From the NCBI GenBank assembly GCA_023660015.1, contig JAGXOG010000007.1:1-40563 (forward strand): a DNA stretch of 40,563 bases. Direction: 5' to 3'. The position numbers and the translations under genes were made by a program. Under the pieces are notes generated by a model. It was not told the DNA's origin and did no database searches. It saw only the letters and a list, made by a program, of their open reading frames with translations. Within the stretch, counting starts at the first letter, position 1; every line of letters begins with the position of its first letter. Source of the stretch: Elusimicrobia bacterium LH_S2 (GTDB taxonomy: Bacteria > CG03 > SLGR01 > JAGXOG01). This document shows positions 100 through 2,128 of the stretch, piece after piece.

Positions 100-959
100 A
101 TGAAAAAGTGGAAAATTAAAATAGGTGAAAAAATTTATAGAGCAGATAGCACCAAGAAGACCCAAAATACATAAAAGCAGGAAAAATTCCTGAAGATGCT
201 CTGGTAAAAAGCGGAAATGAAAAAAGTTGGAAACTAATAAGGGAAACTATAGAATTTGAAAAATTTTTTACCACCGGACTGTCCCTGGAAGGTGAAGAAG
301 AAAAACCCACAAAGCAAGAGATAAAAGAAGATGTAAAGGTATGTCCTAAATGTAATTATGAAAATCCCACAGATACTGAATACTGTTCTATGTGCAAATA
401 TTCTTTTATAAAAGAAGAAAGAAGACCTGAATCTATTTCAGCCCCCAGGTCTTCTTATGAAGAAAAAAATAAGATTATTGGCTTGGATTTTTCTAAGATT
501 ATTCTGGTTATAATACTTGCCGCAGTGGCTTATGGCGGGTGGAAAGTTTATAATAGATTTACCGAAACTCCTCAGGAAAGATATTTTCGCCTAAAGGAAA
601 AAGTTGAAACAAAAATAGATAAAATAATAAAAGAAGAAAAAGAGTGGATGCAGCATTGGGATAGAAAGCAATCAAAGATTTTAAAAAACCCTGATAAATT
701 TGATAGGTTGGGAAAAAAGTGTTTTAAGGATATGAAAAAGCATATGCAATGGCACGACGATAAATGTAAGGAGGTTAGCCGCATATTACGTTCTATGTCA
801 AAACTTTCTGCTTTTGATGATAGAAGATATTGTGGTGCGAAATAAATAAAAAAATGGAACAAACACGAGGCATTTCTTAAGAAAGTTGGATATAGGGAGT
901 GGTGTGAAGAACAATTTAACAGACTTACAACAGCATTTGGTATGACTAAAAGCCGGTAA
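100..959 (+). pseudogene. Degenerate paralog of the 1022-2128 gene: GYF_2-like N-terminus, zinc ribbon, TM segment and charged C-terminus
   Basis: ATG at 100 begins MKKWKIKIGEKIYRADSTKK, near-identical to the protein at 1022. One nt is missing near 163 relative to that copy. The reading frame resumes through CPKCNYENPTDTEYCSMCKYSF (ORF 390-845), meets TAA at 843-845, then continues in frame as IKKWNKHEAFLKKVGYREWCEEQFNRLTTAFGMTKSR* to 959. Confidence 0.7.
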
Positions 960-1021: not shown

Positions 1022-2128
1022 ATGAAAAAGTGGGAGATTAAAATAGGTGAAAAAATTTATAGAGCAGATAGCACCGAGAAAACCATAAAATATATAAAAG
1101 CAGGAAAAATCCCAAAAGATGCTCTGGTAAAAAGCGGGAATGAAAAAAATTGGAAACCAATAGGAAAAATTATAGAATTTGAAAAGTTTTTTACCACCGG
1201 ACTGTCCCTGGAAGGTGAGAAAGAAGAACCCAAAAAAAAAGAGATAAAAAAAGATGTAAAGGTATGTCCTAAATGTAATTATGAAACTCCCACAAGTGCT
1301 GAATACTGTTCTATATGCAAATATTCTTTTATAAAGGATAAGAATAGGAAAGAAAGTATTGATATTCCAAAGCGCAGGATAAAAGCCGAAAGGAAAATCT
1401 CAGCAAATGTATTAAAAAAATCATGGATGCAATGCCTGCTGGCATTTTTTATTTCTTTTTTCATAACTCCCAAATTGAGAATAATCTGGTATCCATTCAG
1501 ATTCATAAAAGTATTCTGGCATGAAATAGGCCATACTGTTTTGTATTGGCTTTTTGGGTATTTTGCCATTCCTGCTGTAGATCCATTAAGTACTGGTGGA
1601 GTATCTTTGGCTGTATCATCTAATTCTGCTGTTCCATTTTTTATAATAGGCATATTAATTGTAGGTACATATCTTATAAGAAAGTATGACTATGGAATTT
1701 ACTTAGGAACAGGAATTACGGTTTTTTATGGAATATTAGCATTTACCCCGGCCGGGGACTGGCTTATCTGGGCAGGTGGTATTCTGGCTGAATATATTCT
1801 AATTGGGGTATCTCTTTACTTTTGTCTCTTTAAAAGAAGATTTAAAGTGAAGGGAGAAAGATTTCTCTATGGGCTGCTGGGATGGATATCTTTTAGAGAA
1901 CGGCTGCAATTTCTATTTAAGTTAAAAACAAGTGAAATATTTTATAAAAATTATATTCATGGTCAGGGCTGGCAAAAAGGTTTGATAGGAGATCTTGCCC
2001 GTATATCATTTGATATAAATCATAAGTTTTCAGTAGATAGTTTTGATACTATAGTAAATATATTTATTGCTCTGATATTTGTTCCTTTAATAATATTGGC
2101 ATATATCTCAGTACGACGTTTTAAATAA
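1022..2128 (+). CDS. GYF_2-like domain, zinc ribbon and multi-pass membrane protein with HEIGH (M50-like metalloprotease) motif
   Basis: 368 aa. N-term IKAGKIPKDALVKSGNEKNWKPIGK resembles GYF_2/DUF4339; CPKCNYETPTSAEYCSIC is a CxxC...CxxC ribbon; VFWHEIGHTVLYWLFGYFAIPAVDP is an HExxH motif followed by several hydrophobic helices. Confidence 0.6.
   Translation: MKKWEIKIGEKIYRADSTEKTIKYIKAGKIPKDALVKSGNEKNWKPIGKIIEFEKFFTTGLSLEGEKEEPKKKEIKKDVKVCPKCNYETPTSAEYCSICKYSFIKDKNRKESIDIPKRRIKAERKISANVLKKSWMQCLLAFFISFFITPKLRIIWYPFRFIKVFWHEIGHTVLYWLFGYFAIPAVDPLSTGGVSLAVSSNSAVPFFIIGILIVGTYLIRKYDYGIYLGTGITVFYGILAFTPAGDWLIWAGGILAEYILIGVSLYFCLFKRRFKVKGERFLYGLLGWISFRERLQFLFKLKTSEIFYKNYIHGQGWQKGLIGDLARISFDINHKFSVDSFDTIVNIFIALIFVPLIILAYISVRRFK

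Follow-up and report, generated by a model that had tools for sequence, protein, structure and literature searches.

What does a protein do that joins a GYF-type module and a zinc ribbon to a polytopic membrane domain with a metalloprotease-like HEIGH motif? The question is raised by an open reading frame at 1022-2128 on the forward strand of the window (the whole stretch of DNA analysed, 40,563 nucleotides), which encodes a three-part product of 368 aa: a GYF_2-type domain, a zinc ribbon and a polytopic membrane domain. The gene lies on contig C108 of a draft genome (1.04-Mb, 66.6% complete), close to the contig's left end. The reading frame is as an earlier note had described it, with VFWHEIGHTVLYWLFGYFAIPAVDP, the AGDWLIWAGGILAEY segment, a CPKC...CSIC zinc ribbon and a GYF-like N-terminus all there, and the fusion of these modules to an M50-like domain that the note proposed was seen in no other sampled genome. 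The best reading is of an unusual combination of individually ordinary parts, a domain variant of an M50B-like membrane metalloprotease. Little work has been done on the bacterial family to which the protease part belongs, and its members are scattered. The parts of the gene are:

1022..1201, forward strand: GYF_2-type domain, residues 1-60 (hhalign, AF2, Foldseek)
1265..1318, forward strand: zinc ribbon CPKC-X10-CSIC, residues 82-99 (sequence, weak Pfam matches, homologue Cys)
1403..2125, forward strand: M50B-like membrane domain of about six helices, residues ~128-368 (PF13398 score, hhalign, hydropathy)
1520..1534, forward strand: HEIGH, residues 167-171, with predicted zinc ligands His167 and His171 and predicted catalytic Glu168 (invariant in core homologues)

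From domain composition, homology and conserved residues, we infer that the product is fairly probably a zinc metalloprotease integral to the membrane, from the M50B-like branch of the site-2-protease superfamily, equipped with a cytosolic recruitment module. Judged from the sequence, His167 and His171 of HEIGH, together with Asp324 ahead of the last helix, would hold zinc within the membrane, and Glu168 would activate water. Glu257, in a hydrophobic helix between HEIGH and Asp324, probably lines the active site, and the substrate cut could be membrane-embedded or membrane-proximal. Both the zinc ribbon, which all of the family has, and the GYF domain, an addition confined to this lineage, would face the cytosol and most likely serve for docking or as a scaffold, recruiting substrates or regulators to the protease.

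Kinship of the membrane domain to Peptidase_M50B

Helices were assigned by hydropathy in the 368-aa protein and its homologues. The best Pfam match for the membrane part was Peptidase_M50B (PF13398; E 2.8e-5), with 24.4 bits, 1.6 bits short of the cut-off of 26; the orthologues L007 (26.1) and G012 (29.4) pass it. Comparison by hhalign with eight PF13398 members gave a local probability of 96.0 (E 3.9e-9) and a global probability of 97.9 (E 3.4e-12), and the global score of 58.2 compares with a mean of 14.1 and a maximum of 39.5 when the columns after HEIGH were shuffled (150 shuffles). The local match is confident from HEIGH through the two helices that follow it; further towards the C-terminus the alignment is of low confidence. 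The HExxH matching HEIGH is also present in M50B members. These probabilities (96-98) uphold the earlier claim of an M50-like membrane metalloprotease domain, here in the M50B-like branch, and by profile comparison the domain is a divergent relative of Peptidase_M50B.

As in PF13398, the HExxH follows the first hydrophobic helix, Gly-Gly is found downstream, the helix order is similar, a conserved Asp stands ahead of the last helix and NPDG is absent. In contrast to PF13398, the window protein carries an extra N-terminal zinc ribbon and GYF domain as well as the invariant Glu257, and the AGYxGS motif of M50B is missing (by eye). M50B-like proteins have been described as having HExxH, no NPDG, and a conserved downstream Gly and Asp (PMC5249076). 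This description fits, with Gly253 and Asp324 invariant and NPDG absent, the Asp pairing falling in the low-confidence part of the alignment.

There are also likenesses to Peptidase_M50 and the site-2 proteases RseP and SpoIVFB (PF02163), namely an HExGH in a membrane helix and a Gly-rich helix resembling AGPxxN. Unlike these enzymes, the window protein has no PDZ or CBS domain, gives no match to PF02163 and lacks the NxxPxxxxDG (NPDG/LDG) motif; the canonical PF02163 protease of the source genome is a separate gene (G000:C50). Searches of viral and plasmid sequences turned up no relative, and sequence comparison with the PDB gave none for the membrane domain. The full-length AF2 model (two-sequence input) reached a pLDDT of 43 and was used for no claim.

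The GYF module, the zinc ribbon and the upstream gene

The 368-aa protein scores 12.6 bits against GYF_2 in Pfam, below the gathering cut-off of 25.8, and a sibling copy in the source genome (G000:C38) scores 19.0 bits against the same cut-off. Comparison by hhalign of nine related N-termini from the same order with 21 GYF_2 domains gave a probability of 97.8 (E 1.1e-12, 56 columns). Furthermore, the AF2 model of residues 1-60 (pLDDT 75) has the order strand-strand-helix-strand-helix, and its top eight Foldseek matches in the PDB are all GYF domains (GIGYF1/2, Smy2, GltJ GYF), the best with E 3.6e-3, probability 1.00 and TM 0.70. As such, the GYF-type module of the earlier note is backed by profile and structure comparison despite the sub-threshold Pfam score.

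Classical GYF domains bind proline-rich ligands through the GP(F) motif. In the window protein YRAD stands where YGPx is expected, and with GP(F) replaced a classical proline-rich ligand is unlikely. The domain shares its fold, a full-length profile match and a bacterial origin with GYF_2 (PF14237) and the GYF domain of Myxococcus xanthus GltJ (PDB 7z3c), but not their ligand motif; a literature search for GltJ with GYF returned nothing on point. The two nearest orthologues lack GYF and begin at the zinc ribbon, and none of the other full-length homologues that were inspected showed the domain. It is a lineage-specific, local add-on, found on an M50B-like domain only in the source genome among those sampled. 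Since GP(F) is lost and the nearest orthologues have no GYF, gating by this domain cannot be a family feature.

The zinc ribbon gives weak Pfam matches below the cut-off (UPF0547, Zn_ribbon_15, Zn_Ribbon_1, DZR). Its assignment is borne out by both CxxC knuckles (CPKC and CSIC), whose four Cys are kept in nearly all homologues. A literature search for a zinc ribbon with S2P or M50 returned nothing on point.

The gene upstream had been regarded as a paralog, possibly a partner or competitor:

102..845, forward strand: broken tandem GYF/zinc-ribbon copy, then a single TM helix and a charged tail; no HExxH (DNA alignment)

The relationship holds over the N-terminal ~105 residues, to which it is confined; the remainder is unrelated, and near 165 the frame is broken by the apparent loss of 1 base compared with the other copy (DNA alignment, one draft assembly). 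Having no protease domain and no HExxH, and being frameshifted, the neighbour is not a second protease. At the DNA level, ~350 bp are duplicated at high identity between 41-420 and 961-1335 of the window, including ~60 bp 5' of the start codon, and the two copies run into unrelated C-termini. In the third copy of the module in the source genome (G000:C38), a stop falls within the matched stretch.

Within the same order, the GYF-like module also stands at the head of polytopic membrane proteins that are unrelated (L009, L061, L062, L066), some of them without the ribbon, as would be expected of a portable docking module. At L009 2-3068 (G005), three genes in tandem share this GYF-like N-terminus; two have the zinc ribbon, and all three continue into similar polytopic membrane domains that lack HExxH. 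A further GYF_2 protein with HExxH (L152) was rejected as a chance motif sitting in a disordered stretch.

It is possible, though we think it the weaker view, that the GYF/zinc-ribbon N-terminus is a passenger, copied recently and without regulatory function, and that the membrane domain plus its ribbon makes up the functional unit. Such a reading is compatible with the best explanation of the membrane domain, and the restriction of GYF to this one protein among its orthologues and inspected homologues, the lost GP(F) and the frameshifted adjoining copy would all suit it. It is opposed by a GYF fold that is intact by prediction (AF2, Foldseek) and by the persistence of the module in several further membrane proteins from the order.

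Candidate metal ligands of the membrane domain

The core alignment comprises 21 sequences, 18 below 90% identity, with a mean pairwise identity of 29%. Entry required HE-x-G/A-H, which removed one match only (L079, matching the zinc ribbon alone). HExGH, Pro184, Gly253, Glu257 and Asp324 are invariant in 21/21 core sequences. Lack of conservation of HEIGH had been named as a result that would refute the protease idea; instead, HExGH recurs in each of the other 20 core homologues, which come from many lineages. Three further acidic positions bear on the third metal ligand:

1757..1759, forward strand: Asp246, third-ligand candidate of the earlier note (not conserved)
1790..1792, forward strand: Glu257 in GGILAEY (21/21 core; C/A in two remote members)
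1991..1993, forward strand: Asp324 in GDLARI, best third-ligand candidate (21/21 core; 23/23 with the two remote members)

The column of Asp246 (AGDWLIWAGG), which had been nominated first, holds 5 D, 14 E, 1 G and 1 V, and this variability makes it an unlikely ligand, whereas Asp324 shows no variation and lines up with the M50B Asp. In hhalign, Asp324 pairs with the Asp of the M50B SDA motif in the low-confidence part of the alignment, and the same pairing arose in 6/150 column shuffles. Asp324 is a better candidate than Asp246 on conservation and alignment.

The protein could instead be a metalloprotease with Glu257 as third ligand (HExxH...E, gluzincin-like) and Asp324 in another role, which we regard as unlikely. 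Glu257 is invariant throughout the core; it lies 86 residues beyond HEIGH in a hydrophobic helix, and in the two remote members without it there is an Asp three positions before (GGD). Those same two members have C or A in its place and yet keep Asp324, and it is Asp324 rather than Glu257 that aligns with the M50B Asp. In addition, a short local hhalign match to RseP-type S2Ps (prob 75) places the Glu257 helix on the M50 AGPxxN helix, not on the ligand helix.

It is improbable that the product is a zinc-binding membrane protein other than a protease, such as an adaptor, a chaperone or another metalloenzyme keeping the HExGH site. This reading draws on the literature examined, which holds no active M50B-like (PF13398) bacterial protein; to our knowledge, no activity is known for any of them. 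The gene neighbourhood, compared across phyla, has no conserved neighbour, so that no substrate can be proposed, which is also in its favour. Against it, catalytic Glu168 is invariant in every homologue besides the His ligands, and a pure metal-binding site would not need it. Finally, a chance HEIGH motif in an unrelated membrane protein, for which the Pfam score alone, just under the curated cut-off, could be cited, is already refuted because HExGH is invariant in 21 divergent core sequences, and the profile also matches M50B.

A scattered zinc-ribbon and HExGH family

Two orthologues (~54% identity) were found elsewhere in the phylum, and none in the other genome of the same genus (94% complete). 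A three-sequence profile search found remote relatives in many lineages and further searches added more, so that zinc ribbon and HExGH domain together recur patchily across many bacterial phyla. Unnamed proteins of this kind (e.g. L011, L013, L016, L018, L021, L050) resemble the window protein in the ribbon, HExGH, Gly253, Glu257, Asp324 and similar helices, but lack its GYF domain.

A bolder and distinctly tentative proposal is that these proteins may form a distinct, widespread family of intramembrane metalloproteases, whose cytosolic ribbon would serve as a docking platform onto which lineages graft adaptors (GYF here; another domain in L050), redirecting the protease to new substrates. If true, cytosolic adaptors built into intramembrane proteases would point to substrates being selected by docking, in contrast to the PDZ-gated RseP group. 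With HExGH, Gly253, Glu257, Asp324 and the zinc ribbon as a signature, members of this scattered family can be gathered, and a residue for mutation is identified.

In L050, a different N-terminal domain of ~90 residues (1216-1490) stands ahead of the zinc ribbon. In two close relatives a metallophosphoesterase-like gene, with GDxH and GNHD motifs by eye, is found directly 3' of the protease-like gene (L007 6885-7721, L006 1231-2082), overlapping it by 4 bases in L007; there is none downstream of the protease-like gene in the window. The HEAGH and zinc-ribbon proteins L053, L056 and L080-L082 were set apart from the core, as they have no Asp324 and align poorly. They are shorter membrane proteins with a WWxGxxxxDxAPYINDA-type motif, and make up a second, apparently separate ribbon-protease-like group.
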